Source of the DNA: a virus
Virus record (IMG/VR): IMGVR_UViG_3300032173_000031
Location: 1-28,107 of that record
DNA: 28,107 nt
Direction: 5' to 3' (one strand)
Numbering within the stretch: position 1 is the first letter of the stretch; each line of letters starts with the position of its first letter. Positions 1-28,107 of this stretch are shown piece by piece. Both the position numbers and the translations under genes were made by a program. Below the pieces are notes generated by a model. The model was not told where the DNA came from and ran no database searches. It saw only the letters and a list, made by a program, of their open reading frames with translations.

Positions 1-257
1 GACAGCTCCGCCCAGTACTGCCGGCCAAAGACGGCGGCGCGCTCGAGCTCGTCGACCTCGACCTGGAAGCGCTCGGCGATCTCCGCGAAGGGCGGCTCCT
101 CGCCGCGCGCCACGTACGCGAGCGCGGCGTGCTTCGCCGTGCCCTCGTTGGCCTCGTCGCTCTGAGGGTTGTAGGGCGTCGCTGTAGGCTCGAGCGAGCC
201 TGCGCATGCGAGCGCCGCATCTGCTTTGCTGCCACTGATTTTGACCTGCGTGTCCAT
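1..257 (-). CDS. PD-(D/E)XK (Cas4/RecB-like) nuclease, N-terminal part
   Basis: Only the first 85 or so codons lie in the window; the frame stays open to position 1. The N-terminus reads KISGSKADAALACAGS, followed about 17 residues later by DEANEGTAKHAALAYV. This arrangement (Ser-x-x-x-x-x-x-x-Cys-x-Gly-Ser, then an EGTAxH helix) is the usual opening of phage PD-(D/E)XK exonucleases of the DUF2800/Cas4-like group; the catalytic D and ExK residues would lie beyond the window. The family processes DNA ends in recombination and replication. I chose ATG at 257 because AGGAG lies 7 bases upstream; an in-frame ATG at 263 is too close to it. It is the last visible gene of the minus-strand operon that starts at 1138. 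Assignment rests on the N-terminal pattern alone. Confidence 0.6.
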   Translation of the reverse strand, partial: MDTQVKISGSKADAALACAGSLEPTATPYNPQSDEANEGTAKHAALAYVARGEEPPFAEIAERFQVEVDELERAAVFGRQYWAEL

Positions 258-354
258 TCTCATGCTCCTGTCGTAGTTGGTGGCTAGCGGTTCGGAGGAC
301 TCGTGACACCCACCCGCTCGCCACCGTCGCGCGCCCGGCGACATTGCCGGCGCG

Positions 355-552
355 CTATCTCGATCCGTGCACCGCCCACGCGAGGGCGACCGCCGCAGCG
401 AGGCCGAGGCACCAGAGCGCTAGGTGCAGCCAGGGCACCGGGGCGAGTTCGCCGCTGAACCCGGTAAGCACCTCGGCTCGTTTGCATGGCTGCTCGTCGC
501 GCACCACGTGCAGCGCGGCCTCGCGAGCGGTCCACGGTAAGCGCTGGCTCAT
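355..552 (-). CDS. Small single-span membrane protein
   Basis: A 65-residue protein, not recognised. Residues 1-40 are polar, with MSQRLPWTAREAALHVV at the start. A hydrophobic stretch near the C-terminus (about residues 42-60, LHLALWCLGLAAAVALAW) is a good transmembrane helix, followed by the short tail AVHGSR. It would sit in the inner membrane with a cytoplasmic N-terminal part if the basic tail does not force the opposite orientation. The start overlaps the stop of the receiver-like gene by four bases (ATGA, 549-552), so translation is probably coupled. Lying between a receiver-like protein and a nuclease, it could be a partner of either, but nothing in the sequence shows this. About 100 bases without a gene separate it from the nuclease start. 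Confidence 0.6.
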   Translation of the reverse strand: MSQRLPWTAREAALHVVRDEQPCKRAEVLTGFSGELAPVPWLHLALWCLGLAAAVALAWAVHGSR

Positions 553-845
553 GATGCACCTCGCAGCGCGGCGTCGAGATACGAGGAGCCGTCGCACTTG
601 TTGACGACTCGATGGCCAGCCGGGACGCTTCCCGGCGAGGCCGTGTACACGACCGCGTTGGGCGCGCGCCGCAACATCTCGGGGCCGTGCGGGTGCCAGT
701 CGGTCAGCACAGCCTCGCCCGGCTCCGGGTCGATGGGCTCGGTCGACGTGCGTACGTCCCATCCGAGTCGGCGCATGGCCGGAGCCACGGCGCGCAGGGA
801 CCACAGGTCGTCATCAACGATCAGGAGCTGACGTGCGCCGCTCAT
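549..845 (-). CDS. Stand-alone CheY-like receiver protein
   Basis: A 98-residue protein that keeps the landmarks of a two-component receiver domain in order. LLIVDDD (about residues 7-13) gives strand 1 with the acidic Asp pair. AVLTDWH (about 45-51) places the phosphoacceptor-type Asp at the end of strand 3. VVYTAS (about 65-70) supplies the strand 4 Thr, and VVNKCD (about 80-85) the strand 5 Lys. Receivers are usually about 120 residues, so this is a compact version with shortened helices and no output domain. If it folds as it reads, it could be phosphorylated by, or compete for, a host histidine kinase; that role is inference. The ATG at 845 overlaps the upstream stop (ATGA, 842-845), which fixes the start against longer in-frame readings. 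It is the second gene of the minus-strand operon controlled from about 1187. Confidence 0.65.
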   Translation of the reverse strand: MSGARQLLIVDDDLWSLRAVAPAMRRLGWDVRTSTEPIDPEPGEAVLTDWHPHGPEMLRRAPNAVVYTASPGSVPAGHRVVNKCDGSSYLDAALRGAS

Positions 846-1138
846 TTGCCACCGCCCGTCTTCGTCTTCTTCGCTTGCGCGCGGTCGGCCGCGCAGGCGT
901 CGAGAGCCGCCTCGGTGTCGTGCTCCCAGCAGCCGTAGAACTCGCCCTGGTCGCCGCAGGTGCACTCGCGCAGCGCGGCGGACGCTTCGTCGCGGGCCTC
1001 GCCCAGGAGCCGCTCGAGCGTCGCCTGCAGACCGTCACGGGCGATGCGCGCGCGCGGGTCGTACGCCTCGCCAGCGTCGTCGCTACCGTCGCCGTGGTTG
1101 CGACCGAAGGTGTGCATGGGGTTCTCGAGCTGTTGCAT
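842..1138 (-). CDS. Hypothetical Cys-rich acidic protein
   Basis: A 98-residue protein of unknown function and the first gene of the leftward operon. Features seen: a His/Gly/Asp-rich start (HTFGRNHGDGSDD), a helical middle part (LQATLERLLGEARDEASAAL), and a cluster CTCG...YGC..H...C that could bind a metal. The tail is Lys/Gly-rich (KKTKTGGGK). GGAGG lies five bases upstream of the ATG at 1138 and supports that start. A sigma70-type promoter with an operator overlapping its -10 box lies about 26-54 bases upstream. The gene is coupled by an ATGA overlap to the receiver-like gene, so the two are probably made together. I found no family I could name. Confidence 0.6.
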   Translation of the reverse strand: MQQLENPMHTFGRNHGDGSDDAGEAYDPRARIARDGLQATLERLLGEARDEASAALRECTCGDQGEFYGCWEHDTEAALDACAADRAQAKKTKTGGGK

Positions 1139-1288: not shown

Positions 1289-1690
1289 ATGAAACGACTT
1301 TGGATTGCGGCGCTACTACTTCATGGATGTGGGGCAGATGGGATTTCTGACGGTACCTACGCCGTCACGGGCACGCGCACGACCAATACGTGCGGCACCG
1401 CGGTCCCCATCTCCTATGCCGCCACATGGACGATCGCTGAGACGGATGGGAGTTGGACCGCTCACGTAAAGGAGACGGGGGCAACGCTGAGCGGCACCGG
1501 CAGTTCCACGAGCGTGACGCTGGCTGGTGCGGTCGTCGTGTCTGGTGCCTGTGACCTCTACGAAGAGGACTCAGTTTCCATCATCGCCAACGGGGCTGGC
1601 GGTTTCTCTGGTGATGCGAACGTGGCGCTAAGGGACTGCACCGGAGCCCGCTGCACGGCCGCGTACAGAGTGAACGGCTCGCCCAAGTAG
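1289..1690 (+). CDS. Prophage lipoprotein (probable moron)
   Basis: A 133-residue protein with a bacterial lipoprotein signal: MKR, then the hydrophobic LWIAALLL, then the lipobox-like HGC with Cys at about residue 14. The mature part is Thr/Ser/Gly-rich and looks like a small beta-sheet domain. It has four further cysteines that could form disulfides (TCGTA, ACDLY, DCTGARCTA). It would be exported and anchored in a membrane. It sits beside the repressor gene, on the opposite strand from it, with only four bases between the two stops. GAGGG lies about 6 bases before the ATG. Lipoproteins beside the repressor are often made in the lysogen and alter the host envelope, for example by excluding other phages; that role is inference. 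No specific family recognised. Confidence 0.6.
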   Translation: MKRLWIAALLLHGCGADGISDGTYAVTGTRTTNTCGTAVPISYAATWTIAETDGSWTAHVKETGATLSGTGSSTSVTLAGAVVVSGACDLYEEDSVSIIANGAGGFSGDANVALRDCTGARCTAAYRVNGSPK

Positions 1691-1698
1691 CGCGCTAC
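1687..1698. repeat. 12-base palindrome spanning two convergent stops
   Basis: GTAGCGCGCTAC is a perfect palindrome that holds the stop codons of both the lipoprotein gene (plus) and the CI-like gene (minus). It is too short and lacks T runs, so it is not a convincing bidirectional terminator. Confidence 0.35.
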
Positions 1699-2081
1699 TC
1701 GGCGGCCTCCGCGCTCGCCCGGTGGGCCATCAGCAACAGCGAGTAGCTCTGCAGGGTGTGTTGTCTCCCCGGCATTCTGGCCGAGGCGAGAAACGTGCGC
1801 TCCTGCGGCGCAGCCCCACTTCCGATAGGCGATGCAAGGAACTCGAGCAGGGTCGCATTGGCCTGCGGTTCCTCTGTGCACAGGTCCGCGACGGTGACCC
1901 CGAGCGCCTCCGCTATCTTCTCTAGGGTGTCCCAGCGCGCATTCGGGCGAGCGCCAGACTCGATCATGCCGACCGAGGATAGGCCGGCGTGACCGGCGAG
2001 CTCGGTCTGAGACCAGCCGCGCTGGCCGCGTAGGCGCTTCACGTTACGTGCGACGATTGCCGCCGGGCTCTTCGGCACCAT
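1695..2081 (-). CDS. CI-like HTH repressor without peptidase domain
   Basis: A 128-residue protein with an N-terminal XRE/HTH_3 domain (about residues 8-65): IVARNVKRLRGQRGWSQTEL, then the recognition region LSSVGMIESGARPNAR and the helix TLEKIAEALGVTVADL. The roughly 60-residue C-terminal part shows no S24 (LexA-type) peptidase Ser or Lys motifs, so RecA-driven self-cleavage is not expected. It is the divergent neighbour of the Cro-like gene and shares most of its HTH sequence, so both probably bind the operators at 2091-2163 and 1157-1169. I took ATG at 2081. AGAGGG abuts it with no spacing, so the message may be leaderless, as for lambda cI, or the adjacent GTG may be used. A promoter is not obvious. 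Lysogeny maintenance is inferred. Confidence 0.75.
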   Translation of the reverse strand: MVPKSPAAIVARNVKRLRGQRGWSQTELAGHAGLSSVGMIESGARPNARWDTLEKIAEALGVTVADLCTEEPQANATLLEFLASPIGSGAAPQERTFLASARMPGRQHTLQSYSLLLMAHRASAEAAE

Positions 2082-2135: not shown

Positions 2136-2165
2136 TTGACACGAACGATAACGCTTCGTTATCAT
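2136..2165 (+). promoter_or_regulatory. Rightward early promoter (PR-like)
   Basis: TTGACA (2136-2141) matches the -35 consensus. After an 18-base spacer comes TATCAT (2160-2165), five of six -10 bases. Initiation 7-8 bases downstream would fall at about 2173, the A of the ATG of the Cro-like gene, so the message is probably leaderless. Operator 3 fills the spacer and touches the -10 box, so a bound repressor would shut it off. Confidence 0.7.
2147..2163. promoter_or_regulatory. Operator 3, inside the rightward promoter
   Basis: GATAACGCTTCGTTATC is a 17-base palindrome around a 3-base centre, the longest of the four related sites. It occupies the spacer and part of the -10 box of the rightward promoter. 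Confidence 0.65.
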
Positions 2166-2172
2166 GTTCTGC

Positions 2173-2397
2173 ATGTCAACCACCGAACGAGAGAACGTGC
2201 TCGGCACAAACATCAGGCGGCTGCGGCTCGCTGCTGGTCTCACCCAGGAAGAGCTGTCGGCCAAGGCGGATGCAACGTCGGTAGCCATGATCGAGGCCGG
2301 CCAGCGTCCGAATGCCAGGCACGACACGGTGGAGAAAATCGCCAAGGCGCTCGGCGTTGAGCTCTCCGAACTGTACCGCGCGCCGAGCGGCGACTAG
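2173..2397 (+). CDS. Cro-like XRE HTH regulator
   Basis: A 74-residue protein that is almost entirely one XRE/HTH_3 domain: ENVLGTNIRRLRLAAGLTQE, then LSAKADATSVAMIEAGQRPN with the recognition helix, then TVEKIAKALGVELSEL. Its recognition region closely resembles that of the divergent CI-like protein (MIEAGQRPNAR against MIESGARPNAR), so the two are paralogues that should compete for the same sites. An ATG at 2164 overlaps the -10 box. The ATG at 2173 coincides with the expected transcription start and has no ribosome binding site, which suggests leaderless translation. It is the first gene of the rightward early operon and probably represses the CI-like gene and itself during lytic growth. 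Confidence 0.75.
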   Translation: MSTTERENVLGTNIRRLRLAAGLTQEELSAKADATSVAMIEAGQRPNARHDTVEKIAKALGVELSELYRAPSGD

Positions 2398-2419
2398 CGC
2401 GGCGTCCGAAAGGGGGCGT

Positions 2420-2887
2420 GTGTCGTGGCTCATTGCGGAATCGTACACGGAAGGGCCTGCGCAACGTGCGTCAACTCTCGCACGCACCGTGCGCAAGGGG
2501 GCATGGGTGCCTGAACAACTTGGGCTGCGTTACGACGCCCGCTACCAATCCCGAGAGTTGTGGGACGTGCTGCTCTCCGAGTTGCGTACGATCGTCGACG
2601 CGCTCGGCCTCAAGCAAGTCGCCTACGACCTCGACGTTCAGCCGAGCGTTCTGGCCCACGCCCTGGCAGAGCGCGACCGCCACTACGTCCGCGCCGACTG
2701 GTTGCCGTACCTGCTTGAGCACGCACCGAGCGACCGCGTCGTATCGCTCATCGCAGGATGGCGCGGTCTCGAGGTCAAGCCACGTCTCGTGCTCACCCCA
2801 GAAGAGAAGCTCCGCCGCATCGAGAGCGCACTCGAGGCAATGCCCGAACTCGGCGACCTCGTCCGCAGGAAGGCGGGTCTGGCATGA
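2420..2887 (+). CDS. Putative CII-like phage regulatory protein
   Basis: A 155-residue protein. The middle (about residues 48-90) reads LLSELRTIVDALGLKQVAYD, followed by LDVQPSVLAHALAERDRHYV, a helix-turn-helix of the kind found in CII/CP76-type phage activators. The next segment, ADWLPYLLEHAPSDRVVSLI, fits the family's trailing helices. The C-terminal 45 residues are helical and charged (EEKLRRIESALEAMPELGDL), perhaps for oligomerisation. The GTG at 2420 follows AGGGGG by three bases and lies 22 bases after the Cro-like stop, the position of cII in lambdoid phages. The function, activating lysogeny genes, is inferred from fold and place and is uncertain. Confidence 0.5.
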   Translation: MSWLIAESYTEGPAQRASTLARTVRKGAWVPEQLGLRYDARYQSRELWDVLLSELRTIVDALGLKQVAYDLDVQPSVLAHALAERDRHYVRADWLPYLLEHAPSDRVVSLIAGWRGLEVKPRLVLTPEEKLRRIESALEAMPELGDLVRRKAGLA

Positions 2888-3108: not shown

Positions 3109-3329
3109 CCAGTTACCAGCGCCTCAAGCAGTCCCTCGCCGAGGCCGAGAGCACCCTGGCCGAGGCTCGGCCGCGGCTGTTGCGGCTCGCGCTCGCGCAC
3201 GCTGAGAATTGGCCGCAGCGCCACAACGACTGCGCATGCCAAACCTGTCGAGACGCCCGCGCCGTGCTCGGCCTCGAGCGCAAGAGAGTCGCCAAGCCGA
3301 TACAAGGGCGACTGCGGGGTGTGGCGTGA
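3105..3329 (+). CDS. Hypothetical small protein with CxCxxC motif
   Basis: A 74-residue protein, not recognised. Residues 1-35 form an amphipathic helix rich in Ala, Glu and Leu (YQRLKQSLAEAESTLAEARP). The centre holds HNDCACQTCRDA, where three cysteines and a histidine could bind zinc. The tail is basic (ERKRVAKPIQGRLRG), which would suit nucleic acid binding. It is embedded in the early operon by a four-base ATGA overlap upstream and a GTGA overlap with the methyltransferase downstream. It may assist the methyltransferase, but only the coupling supports that. Confidence 0.5.
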   Translation: MTSYQRLKQSLAEAESTLAEARPRLLRLALAHAENWPQRHNDCACQTCRDARAVLGLERKRVAKPIQGRLRGVA

Positions 3330-3928
3330 CGAGCCTGCAGCTTCTGCTGCCCGGCTCGCCGCCAGCGCTCAAGCGCGCCGCGTCGCAGTGGTTGACCCCG
3401 AGCGACCTTGCGGCTCGCATGGTCGAGTGGGCCGGCGTGCGTCCTGGAATGCGCGTGCTCGAGCCGAGCGCCGGTGACGGCTCTATCGTTGCGCCGCTGC
3501 TCGCCGCTGGCGCCGATGTCGTGGCCGTCGAGGCGGACAAGACGTTGACGTGGAAGCTCGTAGACATGAAGACGCGCAGCGACTTCGAGCTGCGCCACTT
3601 TGACTTCTTGCAGCTGAGCGACCTCGGAGCGTTTGACCTGGCGGTCATGAACCCGCCCTATGAAAACGGCCAGGACCTCGAGCACGTGCTCCATGCTCTC
3701 GAGTTCGCGCCGCGCGTCGTCGCGCTGCTGCGGCTCGTCTTCCTCGCCGGCCAGGAGAGAGGCAGGGGGCTGTGGTCCAAGCACACCCTTCGCCGGCTCG
3801 CCGTTCTCTCGTCGAGGCCGCGCTTTCGCGGTGATGGCGACGACGACCCAAAGAGCGACTTCGCACTTTTCGACATCGAGCGCGGCCGCGCCAATCCTGG
3901 CCCGGCCGAAATCACATGGTGGCCATAG
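3326..3928 (+). CDS. DNA N6-adenine methyltransferase
   Basis: A 200-residue class I methyltransferase. The SAM-binding motif I is MRVLEPSAGDGSIV (about residues 44-57). An acidic residue ends the next strand (VVAVEAD). The catalytic motif IV is DLAVMNPPYENG (about 105-116), the NPPY form typical of N6-adenine or glutamine methyltransferases. It starts at a GTG that overlaps the previous stop (GTGA, 3326-3329). At this length there is little room for a target-recognition domain, and no restriction endonuclease lies nearby. It is therefore probably an orphan enzyme that modifies phage DNA against host restriction or alters regulation. Target sequence unknown. Confidence 0.75.
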   Translation: MTSLQLLLPGSPPALKRAASQWLTPSDLAARMVEWAGVRPGMRVLEPSAGDGSIVAPLLAAGADVVAVEADKTLTWKLVDMKTRSDFELRHFDFLQLSDLGAFDLAVMNPPYENGQDLEHVLHALEFAPRVVALLRLVFLAGQERGRGLWSKHTLRRLAVLSSRPRFRGDGDDDPKSDFALFDIERGRANPGPAEITWWP

Positions 3929-5818: not shown

Positions 5819-6027
5819 TGACTTTGCAGCAGGCACTGAGAGACGCGAATCTTGTACTCGAGCGGTCCCGAGAGACGCGGAGGCGCCTTGCCTGCGTCCT
5901 CCCGGCGCCGGCACGGCTGCACCTGTGCGGCATCAGCCGCCGGCACGTGGAGCGCTATCGGCAGGCGATGCTGCGCGCTGCCGACATGCTCACGCCCGAC
6001 TGCGCCGACCTGTCGCGGGTGAGCTGA
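5818..6027 (+). CDS. Hypothetical basic protein
   Basis: A 69-residue, Arg-rich protein, not recognised. It looks helical (LQQALRDANLVLERSRETRR, then SRRHVERYRQAMLRAADMLT) with a short Pro-containing break between the halves (VLPAPARLHLCGI). The ATG at 5818 overlaps the stop of a 14-codon frame and has GGGG five bases before it; an in-frame ATG at 5806 would add four residues. Its last stop base is also the first base of the terminase small subunit start (TGATG), so it is cotranslated with the packaging genes. A DNA-binding accessory role is possible from its charge only. Confidence 0.5.
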   Translation: MTLQQALRDANLVLERSRETRRRLACVLPAPARLHLCGISRRHVERYRQAMLRAADMLTPDCADLSRVS

Positions 6028-15225: not shown

Positions 15226-15579
15226 ATGGCGACCTGGTCAAAAGCTGAGCTGGCAGCTGCGGTGCTCGAGCGCCTTGGCGCGAAGGCGGCGGGGCAGCCG
15301 GCATCGGCAGAGGACCAGGTGAAGACCGAGGCGGCGATTGACTCGGTGCATGCCGAGTTGCGCCGCCTCAACAAGGCTCCGTTCGCGCTCGCCACGATCC
15401 CTGAGTGGGCACAGCTCGCGCTCGAGGAGTACATGGCCGGCCGCCTCTCTGGCGTGTTCGGGATCACCGGCCAGCGGCGCATCGAAGTCGAGAACGACGC
15501 GGCGCGGGGATGGCAAACGCTGTGCGCGCAGACGTCAGCGGGCCGCCCCCGGGCGCCCATTCGCGCTAGGCACTTCTGA
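15226..15579 (+). CDS. Head-tail connector, P22 gp4-like adaptor
   Basis: A 117-residue protein. It reads KAELAAAVLERLGAKAAGQP, then ASAEDQVKTEAAIDSVHAEL and LNKAPFALATIPEWAQLALE, a helical pattern common to podovirus adaptor proteins that sit under the portal. A short tail (VENDAARGWQTLCAQTSAGR) follows. P22 gp4 is about 166 residues, so this is a smaller version and lacks the longer C-terminus. GGAGGG before the ATG at 15226 supports the start. The stop overlaps the next ATG by one base (TGATG). The role, closing the filled head and making a platform for the tail hub, is inferred from pattern and gene order. Confidence 0.55.
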   Translation: MATWSKAELAAAVLERLGAKAAGQPASAEDQVKTEAAIDSVHAELRRLNKAPFALATIPEWAQLALEEYMAGRLSGVFGITGQRRIEVENDAARGWQTLCAQTSAGRPRAPIRARHF

Positions 15580-16052
15580 TGAACGAGCACGTGGTTGAGG
15601 TCCGGCCGGCAGTCGACGCCGATCTTGATGACGTCCTCGCCATGGCGCGCGACTTCTACGCGGCCGCGGGACTCGGCAAGGTGTCGCCACGCAATGACGA
15701 CTACCTGGGCGCGTTGCTCTGCACGTGCATGCTCGAGGACGGGCGCGCGCTCATCGTCGCGACGGTGGACGCCAAGCCGTCAGGGTTCATCTTGCTCACC
15801 ACGTCGCCGCACTCCCTCTGCCCAGATGCGCAGGTGGCTCACGAGCTCGCCTGGTACATCAGGCCCGATTGCCGGGGCCATGGCCTGGGCTCTCGCCTGC
15901 TGTCCGCGGCGGAGGCGTGGGCCAAGGAGCAGGGCGCCCAGGCGCTCTACATGGTGGCCCTCGGCGCCAGCGAGCCGCAGAAGGTCGGCCGCGTCTACAT
16001 CAACAAGGGCTACCGCCTACTCGAGACCATCTACGCAAGGAGCCTGCAATGA
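15579..16052 (+). CDS. GNAT-family N-acetyltransferase
   Basis: A 157-residue protein with the GNAT fold. The N-terminus VEVRPAVDADLDDVLAMARD is the usual first strand and helix. The acetyl-CoA loop is IRPDCRGHGLGSRLL (about residues 93-107), matching R/Q-x-x-G-x-G/A. AEAWAKEQGAQALYMVAL and VYINKGYRLLETIYAR complete the domain. It transfers an acetyl group to an amine, but the substrate cannot be read. It is coupled to both neighbours (TGATG at 15577-15581 and ATGA at 16049-16052) inside the virion operon, which is unusual for an enzyme. It may modify a virion protein or enter the cell to alter a host protein. Domain assignment is firm; the role is open. Confidence 0.8.
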   Translation: MNEHVVEVRPAVDADLDDVLAMARDFYAAAGLGKVSPRNDDYLGALLCTCMLEDGRALIVATVDAKPSGFILLTTSPHSLCPDAQVAHELAWYIRPDCRGHGLGSRLLSAAEAWAKEQGAQALYMVALGASEPQKVGRVYINKGYRLLETIYARSLQ

Positions 16053-23369: not shown

Positions 23370-24569
23370 ATGCAGAAGTCCGTCAGAGCCTTGCTCGTCC
23401 TCTCCCTGTCGCTTTGGGCCGTCTCGGCTCCGGCGTCGAATCTCACCATCCCCAAGTTCCGCGCGCAGACCATCACCGGCGCGGCCATCCCGAGCGCCAA
23501 GCTCTACTTCTACCTACCCACCACGACGACGCCGAAGGACACCTACTCGGACTCGGCGTTGACGGTGCCGAATGCCAATCCTGTCGTCGCCGATGGCAAC
23601 GGCTGGTTCGGCGAAATCTGGATGACAGCGGCCGAATACAAGATCGTGATGAAGGACGCAGCCGGAGCGACGGTCTGGACGTGCGACCACTACTACCCGG
23701 CATATTCTGCGCTCAACAACCAAATCACGGCGTCGAGCTCCACCGCCACCGCAGCGCTCACCGCCACGAACAGCAGCAGTGGATCCGCCATCGTCGCCAC
23801 GAACAGCGGATCCGGTTACGGCATCACCTCCACGGGGGCCGGTAGCGGGTACGGCGTCTATACGACAGGCGGCGCAGGCGGTGGCATCGGACTGCAGGCT
23901 CGCGGAGGTGCGACGAACGGCAAGGGCGCCAGAATCTACGGCGGGGCCTCGGACGGAGACGGGCTGTACGTCCTGGGCGACGGCACCGGCTACGGCATCC
24001 AGGCCATCGGCGGGCATACCAGCGGCATCGGCGGCGACTTCTACGGCGGCGCTACTAACGGCACTGCCGGTAAGTTCACCGCCGGATCTGGCAACGGCAC
24101 CGGCGTCGTCTCGGTCGGGACGGGGACCGGCAAAGGAGGGACGTTCACCGGCGGGCCGACGAGCGGTGCCGGCATCACGGCGACAGGCGGCGAGCCTAGC
24201 GGCACAGGGGGTGTTTTCCTCGGGGGCACGACAAACGGCACCGGTATCTCTTCGACCGCGTACGGCAGCGGCACGGCCGTCTATGCCGAATCATCCACAG
24301 GTGGAGGTTATGGGGTCAACGCACTGGCCCAGGAGACCGGCATCGCCATCAAGGCGACCGCGACAGACGGTTACGCTCTCTATGTGGATGGCGACAGCAC
24401 GTCGCCGATCAAGCCGCTCCTGCATCTGACCCCGCAAAACTCGTATCCGTCTGGGGCTGTCGTGGTGGGCGACATTTATGTCACCACCGCCGGAGTCCTG
24501 AAAATTTGCACGGTAGCCGGTACTGGTGCGGGCGCGACATGGACCACTGTCGGGGTCCAGACCCCGTAA
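23370..24569 (+). CDS. Tail fibre/spike-like protein with signal peptide and Gly repeats
   Basis: A 399-residue protein in three parts. Residues 1-23 form a Sec-type signal (MQKSVRALLVLSLSLWAVSA, then PAS). Residues 25-110 are a head-binding domain typical of tailspikes: GAAIPSAKLYFYLPTTTTPK, ALTVPNANPVVADGNGWFGE and EYKIVMKDAAGATVWTCDHY. Residues 120-335 are about sixteen Gly/Thr/Ser-rich repeats of about 13 residues of the form GG-x-x-xGTGG-x-F (for instance GGHTSGIGGDFYGGATNGTA), probably a beta-helix or fibrous stalk. A short C-terminal beta domain ends the protein. AAGGAAAGGAAAGG gives a very strong ribosome binding site. The signal peptide is unusual in a virion protein. No enzymatic residues are recognisable in the repeat part. 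Confidence 0.6.
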   Translation: MQKSVRALLVLSLSLWAVSAPASNLTIPKFRAQTITGAAIPSAKLYFYLPTTTTPKDTYSDSALTVPNANPVVADGNGWFGEIWMTAAEYKIVMKDAAGATVWTCDHYYPAYSALNNQITASSSTATAALTATNSSSGSAIVATNSGSGYGITSTGAGSGYGVYTTGGAGGGIGLQARGGATNGKGARIYGGASDGDGLYVLGDGTGYGIQAIGGHTSGIGGDFYGGATNGTAGKFTAGSGNGTGVVSVGTGTGKGGTFTGGPTSGAGITATGGEPSGTGGVFLGGTTNGTGISSTAYGSGTAVYAESSTGGGYGVNALAQETGIAIKATATDGYALYVDGDSTSPIKPLLHLTPQNSYPSGAVVVGDIYVTTAGVLKICTVAGTGAGATWTTVGVQTP

Positions 24570-26762: not shown

Positions 26763-26958
26763 CGTCGGCACACGGCGCGCCGGTGACGTGCATCGTCGGG
26801 TGCCCGCGCTCGAGTAGGCAGATGCGGGAGCCAATCCACGCCCCGCAGACGCTAGGCGGCTTCAGGGGGGCGACTCGAGAAGCGCCCAGCCTCTGTTTGC
26901 CCCTTGGCGCGCAGCTTGCGGCGCTCTGCGACGCGCTCGCGGCGGTCCCACCTGCCAT
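26752..26958 (-). CDS. Small Cys/His protein (start uncertain)
   Basis: The C-terminal 35 residues look genuine: VCGAWIGSRICLLERGHPTM then HVTGAPC. The pattern CG-x6-C-x4-GHP-x2-H is common in small phage and actinobacterial proteins and could bind zinc. The only ATG in frame far enough upstream is at 26958, with a weak GAGACG before it, giving 68 residues and a 107-base overlap with the gene at 26852-27211. The real start may be closer, at a non-ATG codon near 26870. It ends 11 bases inside the spanin-like gene on the other strand. No function can be given. Confidence 0.35.
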   Translation of the reverse strand: MAGGTAASASQSAASCAPRGKQRLGASRVAPLKPPSVCGAWIGSRICLLERGHPTMHVTGAPCADATA

Positions 26959-27211: not shown

Positions 27212-27877
27212 GCGGACTCGGTGCGGCGGGCCGCGGGAACGCTACCAGCAATCGCCAGCAGCACGTCTCTAAACTCCTGCGGTGTGCGACTGGCGAGACG
27301 CTTCCCTACGCGAGGTAGGCGGTCGGCCCTGTCTCGACCGAGGTCCGATATCTGGGCGGTAGCTCTGCGAGGGTTGCGACGCGTATGATTCCCGCACCAA
27401 ATCACCCACGCCTTGACGTCTTGGTCGGCGACGAATCCCCAGCGCAGAGCTGGCAGCAACGTCACTCCGTAGGCGTAGAGCCAGGTCGACTTCTTGGCAG
27501 GGTGGCCGTAGCGCCCCTGCTCGACGCTGCACGCCCAGCCGCCACAGATGCCGCGCACCCATCCGCCGTGGCGCGGTGGCTCCGGTAGCTCGTACGTGTG
27601 CCAGGCGTCGCTGTGCGCCGGATGCTCCAGCACCCCCCCCCCACTTGCGCACAGCCGCGAGAGCAGAAGCGAAGCACCCACCATCGTCGCCCCGCTTATG
27701 CCCCCAGCGCGCCTCGACGAGCCCGGCGAGACGGCACCAGCGAGCGCACGGTGGGTGAGCCACTACCGGGTGCGGCCCGGCATATAGTCGCGCGTCGCGC
27801 TGCTCGTCCCATGGGTCGACGCAATCGAGCCCGAAGTAGGAGCCCCCCCTCTCGACGTAGAGCGCGGCGATGGTCAT
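27208..27877 (-). CDS. Phage protein with HPPC/EHP motifs, frameshifted at G10
   Basis: The gene is whole only if one G is removed from a run of ten (27633-27642). The first frame reads TIAALYVERGGSYFGLDCVD, then VVAHPPCARWCRLAG and CFASALAAVRKWGG. After the run the second frame continues VLEHPAHSDAWHTYELPEPP, then GRYGHPAKKSTWLYAYGV and RTPQEFRDVLLAIAGS. With nine G the join is KWGGVLEHP, which matches the usual form of this widespread phage family, about 220 residues long. HPPC and EHP resemble the PPC and ENP-type motifs of cytosine-5 methyltransferases, but the SAM-binding motif is not clear, so I do not claim activity. ATG 27877 overlaps an upstream stop (ATGA). Either a sequence error, a true pseudogene or a slippage switch. 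Confidence 0.6.
27633..27642 (-). repeat. Homopolymer run G10 (C10 on plus)
   Basis: Ten identical bases lie in the reading frame of the gene above, exactly where the frame breaks. Such runs change length easily in replication and in sequencing. Confidence 0.8.
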
Positions 27878-27956
27878 GACCGAACCCGCCGCGCTATCAC
27901 GACGACCGTGCCGCCGCCTGCTGCTTGCCGCTGTGCCACCGGCGTGCCAGTCGCAC

Positions 27957-27970
27957 CACGCTCGAGCGTG
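27957..27970. promoter_or_regulatory. 14-base palindrome upstream of the right minus-strand operon
   Basis: CACGCTCGAGCGTG is a perfect palindrome about 80 bases upstream of the ATG at 27877 and about 40 bases from the tRNA fragment. It does not match the AACG-N3-CGTT operators. It could be a regulator site or an integrase/excisionase accessory site at the prophage end. Confidence 0.35.
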
Positions 27971-28008
27971 CTTTCCTTGTGTTTCCGCGGCGATGGGAGT
28001 AGGAGCGA

Positions 28009-28058
28009 GCGGACTTTTAATCCGTTGGCCCCGGGTTCGAATCCCGGACGACCCACCA
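28009..28058 (+). other. 3' part of a tRNA-Lys (TTT) gene: attachment site
   Basis: The anticodon arm (GCGGA, loop CTTTTAA, TCCGT; 28009-28025) and the T arm (CCGGG, TTCGAAT, CCCGG; 28031-28047) are complete. They are followed by the 3' acceptor strand ACGACCC, the discriminator A and CCA (28048-28058). The 5' acceptor strand (expected GGGTCGT) and a proper D arm are absent upstream, so this is not a working tRNA. Such 3' fragments mark where a phage integrated into a tRNA gene, the intact copy lying at the other prophage end. The bases after 28058 hold no recognisable gene and are probably host DNA. Confidence 0.7.
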
Positions 28059-28107
28059 TCAAACCCTTATCTTTAGCCACTTTCAGCCGCTTCTTGCTGT
28101 GCGCCTG

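Follow-up and report, generated by a model that had tools for sequence, protein, structure and literature searches.

Single-domain receivers that act on histidine kinases have been described in bacteria, e.g. FixT (PMC7078487) and Osp (PMC9430884). Both work by inhibition of the kinase rather than as a phosphate sink, and neither was observed to be phosphorylated (PMC7078487, PMC9430884). Few phage proteins that act on two-component systems are known. PIT4, produced early by Pseudomonas phage LSL4, binds histidine kinases, and the 2023 paper on it states that no phage protein had previously been reported to interact directly with a component of a two-component system (PMC10714779). CheY-like proteins are encoded by the Alteromonas phages V22 (gp30) and A5 (gp11). 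These have chain lengths of 147–149 residues, are recognised by IPR001789, and their genes are found in the host-recognition (tail fibre) module (PMC10579305). A further group of phage-borne receiver-like domains, cREC (PF20274), has been proposed to function in counter-defence in jumbo phages by acting on nucleotide signals (PMC7824862).

The mini-receiver gene and its genomic setting

The window, i.e. the whole stretch of viral DNA that was analysed, has a length of 28,107 bases. Its positions 845–549 encode a 98 amino acid protein on the minus strand, here termed the mini-receiver, with the sequence MSGARQLLIVDDDLWSLRAVAPAMRRLGWDVRTSTEPIDPEPGEAVLTDWHPHGPEMLRRAPNAVVYTASPGSVPAGHRVVNKCDGSSYLDAALRGAS. 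The preliminary description placed a 98-residue receiver without an output domain at this location, and the minus strand translation agrees in each respect: the motifs VDDD (aa positions 10–13), LTDW (47–50), VVYTAS (65–70) and VVNKCD (80–85) are all present and no output domain is found in the 98 aa chain. The plus strand of 549–845 is interrupted by a stop codon, and the described protein is encoded on the minus strand only. The mini-receiver gene and the features around it are as follows.

Positions 1–264, minus strand: first part of an exonuclease gene that the contig edge interrupts (phrog_69, E = 1.5e-4; start codon approximate)
Positions 355–552, minus strand: downstream open reading frame of 65 aa, whose start overlaps the mini-receiver stop codon by ATGA
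Positions 549–845, minus strand: mini-receiver gene, 98 aa (ATG at 845–843, stop codon TGA at 551–549)
Positions 842–1138, minus strand: gene upstream in the same operon, encoding 98 aa of no known family and overlapping the mini-receiver gene by ATGA
Positions 1695–2081, minus strand: CI-like helix-turn-helix (HTH) repressor, from library search
Positions 2136–2165: sigma70-like promoter at the Cro-like gene
Positions 2164–2397, plus strand: Cro-like HTH gene, divergent from the repressor, from library search

The first three leftward genes (1138–842, 845–549 and 552–355) are linked by ATGA overlaps, the mini-receiver having such an overlap at each end. The upstream gene has a Shine-Dalgarno-like GGAGG ahead of its ATG. 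The 65 aa open reading frame has no Pfam or PHROGs match and displays a hydrophobic stretch at its C-terminal end that is probably membrane-spanning. The exonuclease segment also shows a weak match to DUF2800. The record is apparently a fragment, as its left edge truncates this gene. Genes for RusA, a replication protein, terminase, portal and capsid are located rightward of the repressor/Cro pair, and the predicted gene order is that of a temperate phage whose early operon runs leftward; the open reading frame list of the record contains no integrase. The record is also without a HATPase_c kinase, thus any partner kinase of the mini-receiver would be the host's.

Codon usage was scored with a model trained on ten genes of the phage. 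The mini-receiver frame has a score of 0.195, the sole positive value among the six frames (RusA of the same phage scores 0.212), and its GC content by codon position is 0.72/0.56/0.81. A chance open reading frame is unlikely because codon usage is positive only in this frame and because of the ATGA overlaps. The supposition of a spurious open reading frame in GC-rich DNA, with motifs that arose by chance, could draw on the lack of any library family match and on the further long open reading frames that overlap 549–845 on both strands. However only one frame of the six looks coding, the overlaps with both neighbours would have to be fortuitous, and the receiver match described below is not reproduced by shuffled sequences or by the reversed query. 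This explanation is in the main refuted and is hardly credible.

Several other features of the record can be mentioned. An open reading frame at 2312–2887 (plus strand), which overlaps the Cro-like gene, shows a weak CII-like match that is below the cut-off (Phage_CP76, E = 0.0056). Beside the repressor, positions 1289–1690 (plus strand) encode a 133 aa protein whose start resembles a signal peptide and which contains a possible lipobox (LLHGC); it has no match in Pfam or PADLOC and could be a lysogenic-conversion or exclusion lipoprotein. A DNA methyltransferase-like protein at 3209–3928 (plus strand; phrog_799, E = 3.8e-20) possibly gives protection from host restriction. A GNAT acetyltransferase is encoded among the structural genes at 15579–16052 (plus strand; phrog_1249, E = 1.8e-26), and a 399 aa protein at 23370–24569 (plus strand) with a long glycine-rich stretch of G-x-G-type repeats is perhaps a tail fibre or spike. 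A second IMG/VR contig (L002/G380) is 99.5% identical across window positions 5908–26861 only, which stops short of the mini-receiver gene. The right end of the phage is variable, because this contig carries unrelated sequence to the right of position 26861. Near that end, an open reading frame at 27874–28080 (minus strand) contains GRPGFEPGANGLKVR, which we take to be typical of wrong-strand read-through of a tRNA gene. ARAGORN finds no tRNA at 27874–28080, and the open reading frame may mark an attachment site that contains part of a tRNA. Host prediction by way of the capsid protein gave nothing in 379 genomes of one phylum (the sample described below).

Relationship to bacterial receivers

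The mini-receiver has no match in library searches of Pfam, PHROGs and NCBIfam, nor in a defence library. Pfam Response_reg (PF00072) gives no match at E 1, nor at E 10 on the record. A search of 84,980 species genomes gave a single accepted match and this is a true receiver, from Myxococcales, with 47% identity to the mini-receiver over beta1-alpha1-beta2. The Myxococcales metagenome-assembled genome then seeded a sample of 379 genomes of one phylum, of which 28 matched at E 0.01; better matches may exist outside this phylum. Receiver genes were present at 15 of the 29 matched loci, and the reversed mini-receiver as query gave four matches, none of them to a receiver. The printed receiver alignments share the same register at the VDD motif and some extend to beta3 or beta4.

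Comparisons with receiver profiles point in the same direction. Against a profile of 32 receivers, drawn from one genome irrespective of similarity to the query, the hhalign score is 30.9 and the maximum among 300 shuffles is 21.3. A full-length global alignment to this profile gives z = 5.8, a value that none of 400 shuffles equals. A first HMM contained sequences picked for likeness to the query and its score is discounted as evidence; an HMM of receivers not picked by similarity gives a modest score, 8.7 bits compared with 7.9 for the highest of 20,000 shuffles. Homology with receivers over most of the length is thus well supported by sequence comparison. The earlier assignment to the receiver family holds by the genome searches, the 32-receiver profile and the closest-relative profile (see below), and weakly by the fold. 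Since both the Pfam threshold and the complete fold are missed, the mini-receiver is a divergent, contracted variant of the receiver family and not a regular PF00072 member.

The nearest relatives, which come from the Myxococcales-seeded sample, are KPW-type receivers, either single-domain or kinase-linked (L098, L111, L113, L115, L101, L110, L123). The four that were compared directly (L098, L111, L101 and L110) have 35%–39% identity with the mini-receiver over aligned columns. The residues D, D, D, T and K are colinear in the KPW receivers and the mini-receiver, and the C-terminal helix pattern after the Lys is alike. The KPW receivers however have chain lengths of about 115–118 residues with full alpha2, alpha3 and alpha4 helices, compared with 98 in the mini-receiver, and have KP where the mini-receiver has KC. 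All five nearest bacterial relatives that were checked are located directly downstream of a histidine kinase gene on the same strand, and these kinases display HisKA and HATPase_c domains, mostly with PAS.

Searches of IMG/VR, phage records and plasmids revealed no relative of the mini-receiver. Peptide patterns and two TDW-motif DNA patterns gave no close relative in viral contigs, nor did tblastn in phages and plasmids, where the weak plasmid matches included two response regulators at chance E-values. Close relatives were also not found in 14 related viral records, or when the nearest bacterial receivers served as queries against viral contigs. Matches of a full receiver in INPHARED are mostly to unannotated or bacterial-looking records. 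The receivers detected in IMG/VR by a generic receiver query either continue beyond the receiver or run into the contig end, and none among these contigs is a stand-alone short receiver. The contracted form has been found in no other phage, and its status as a single orphan sequence limits the claim.

Active-site residues and the contracted fold

The codons of the putative active-site residues are located as follows.

Positions 810–815, minus strand: D11 and D12, acidic pair where beta1 ends, in register throughout the profile alignments
Positions 699–701, minus strand: D49, expected phospho-acceptor at the end of beta3, from profile alignments
Positions 642–644, minus strand: T68, switch Thr at the end of beta4, from profile alignments
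Positions 597–599, minus strand: K83, at the end of beta5 where the conserved Lys is expected, from the closest-relative alignment

The profile alignments place D11, D12 and D49 firmly, as the acidic pair after beta1 and the Asp after beta3. The closest-relative profile matches D11, D12, D49, T68 and K83 to D, D, D, T and K, and the placement is the same at all four gap penalties (gap-open 6–12). For the C-terminal half, a profile was made from six receivers that had been found via the N-terminal half only (L101, whose match ran further, was omitted). When the first 54 residues are fixed and the rest is shuffled, one of 600 shuffles reaches the score against the closest relatives, and T68 and K83 are both placed in eight of 600. 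Against generic receivers the C-terminal half is weaker (12 of 400 shuffles). There a Ser or Thr occupies the Thr column in 38% of the C-terminal shuffles, which makes T68 alone weak evidence, and K83 is unplaced with the appearance of an alternative register that lacks the Lys. MAFFT misaligned the C-terminal half against OmpR-type receivers. In these alignments the placement of K83, and partly that of T68, depends on the receivers chosen. The preliminary description had all phosphorylation residues kept. This stands for D11, D12 and D49; for the full set it is probable and not certain, because generic receivers leave T68 weak and K83 unplaced. In addition, the cis-Pro after the conserved Lys is replaced by Cys (KC), and the two positions that follow D49 are Trp and His.

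The shorter chain length is reflected by alignment gaps in alpha2 (6 residues), the beta3-alpha3 loop (2–3), alpha3 (4) and alpha4 (about 6–7). Alpha1 is retained and alpha4 is lost. The deletions are all in frame and within helices or loops, and the strands and the active site remain. A single-sequence model, which is of low confidence (pLDDT 62.6), displays the order beta1-alpha1-beta2-beta3-alpha3-beta4-alpha5 without alpha2 and alpha4 and with beta5 not resolved. The gaps in the model are at the same places as those in the alignments and the complete (beta-alpha)5 fold is absent. Comparison with the CheY-type fold, as proposed earlier, does give a receiver-like result for this model, i.e. 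receivers are 48 of the top 50 structural neighbours, with Z about 5 and 3.2–3.9 Å over 65–80 residues. The fold comparison backs the kinship weakly and is support, not proof, because by the tool's range a Z of about 5 can reflect a common arrangement.

In receivers, contact with the kinase is made by alpha1 and the beta5-alpha5 loop, and the signal is relayed onward by alpha4-beta5-alpha5. The mini-receiver retains the parts that contact the kinase, and alpha4, which is part of the usual output face, is lost.

Proposed role and comparison with known systems

The best explanation, which we consider evenly balanced between true and false, is that the phage makes the mini-receiver early and that the protein docks on a host histidine kinase as a phosphate sink or as an inhibitor. 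According to this proposal, a contracted single-domain receiver would be expressed from the leftward early operon of a phage of temperate type, and its retained alpha1 and active-site face would dock on the phospho-His domain of the host kinase. There phosphate would be drained onto D49, or the kinase would be blocked, and the host's own response regulator would then be less phosphorylated during infection or lysogeny. Kinase binding, phosphotransfer and the effect on the host are the parts that we infer. Docking on a host kinase is favoured because the bacterial relatives adjoin kinases, the phage record is without one, and FixT, Osp and PIT4 provide precedents. Loss of alpha4 with alpha1 kept, together with the kinase-adjacent relatives, fits a protein that meets a host kinase, and the early-type operon with an exonuclease beside the repressor/Cro pair counts for it also. 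Against it are the weakness of T68 and K83 with generic receivers, the Cys in place of cis-Pro, the Trp and His after D49, the weak structure model, and a Response_reg comparison that falls short of E = 10. A domain without alpha2 and alpha4 may also be unstable alone and, with no phage relative, selection on the active site has no evidence. A more specific suggestion, possible and on balance doubtful, is that the phage pared a kinase-partner receiver to a minimal domain, which would serve the virus specifically to drain phosphate from two-component signalling or to block its kinases. Such a domain would have kept the kinase-docking, phosphate-accepting side, and its output face would be without the alpha4 part.

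A receiver-derived adaptor without a kinase role, in which the fold is kept as a small module that binds a phage partner, would account for the contraction of four elements, the loss of cis-Pro and the orphan status, and the ATGA-coupled neighbours are of no known family and one has a hydrophobic stretch. Its partner might be, for example, the co-encoded 98 aa protein, the putatively membrane-associated 65 aa protein or the repressor. An adaptor need not keep the five active-site residues however, and an alignment of all five with their counterparts in the closest receivers is possible. An adaptor seems rather unlikely. It is improbable that the gene is a functionless, decaying fragment of a host receiver gene acquired by the phage. 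Its single occurrence, internal deletions and modest codon score (0.195) would be expected of a fragment, but the deletions are in frame and confined to helices and loops, strands and active site stay, the frame is open and the ATGA coupling is intact on both sides. A cREC-type counter-defence enzyme acting on nucleotide signals is disfavoured and very improbable. The cREC domains are, like the mini-receiver, phage-borne, short and receiver-like with retained Asp residues. Unlike it, they pass from DDxR straight to a Gly-Trp strand with no alpha1, which the mini-receiver keeps, and they carry SxDHDLG and HSAN motifs; DDxR, SxDHDLG and HSAN are all absent from the mini-receiver. The hhalign score against seven cREC sequences (8.4) is below the shuffle mean (11.5), and PF20274 gives no match at E 10. 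Membership in cREC was rejected, as neither the Pfam nor the local cREC profile was reached.

With respect to docking on a host kinase, FixT and Osp resemble the mini-receiver in being receivers without an output domain, and differ as bacterial receivers that act as feedback inhibitors. Because they inhibit the kinase, uptake of phosphate, as suggested in the preliminary description, is only one of two possible modes. PIT4 may have a function in common with the mini-receiver, and the available part of the paper reports no receiver fold for it (PMC10714779). V22 gp30 and A5 gp11 are likewise phage-encoded members of the receiver family but have 147–149 residues compared with 98. Thus phage CheY-like proteins are already known, and the contracted 98-residue form is what sets this locus apart. 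A receiver of this length would be unusually small; it would show which parts of the fold are required for contact with a kinase, and would serve as a natural decoy of compact size.
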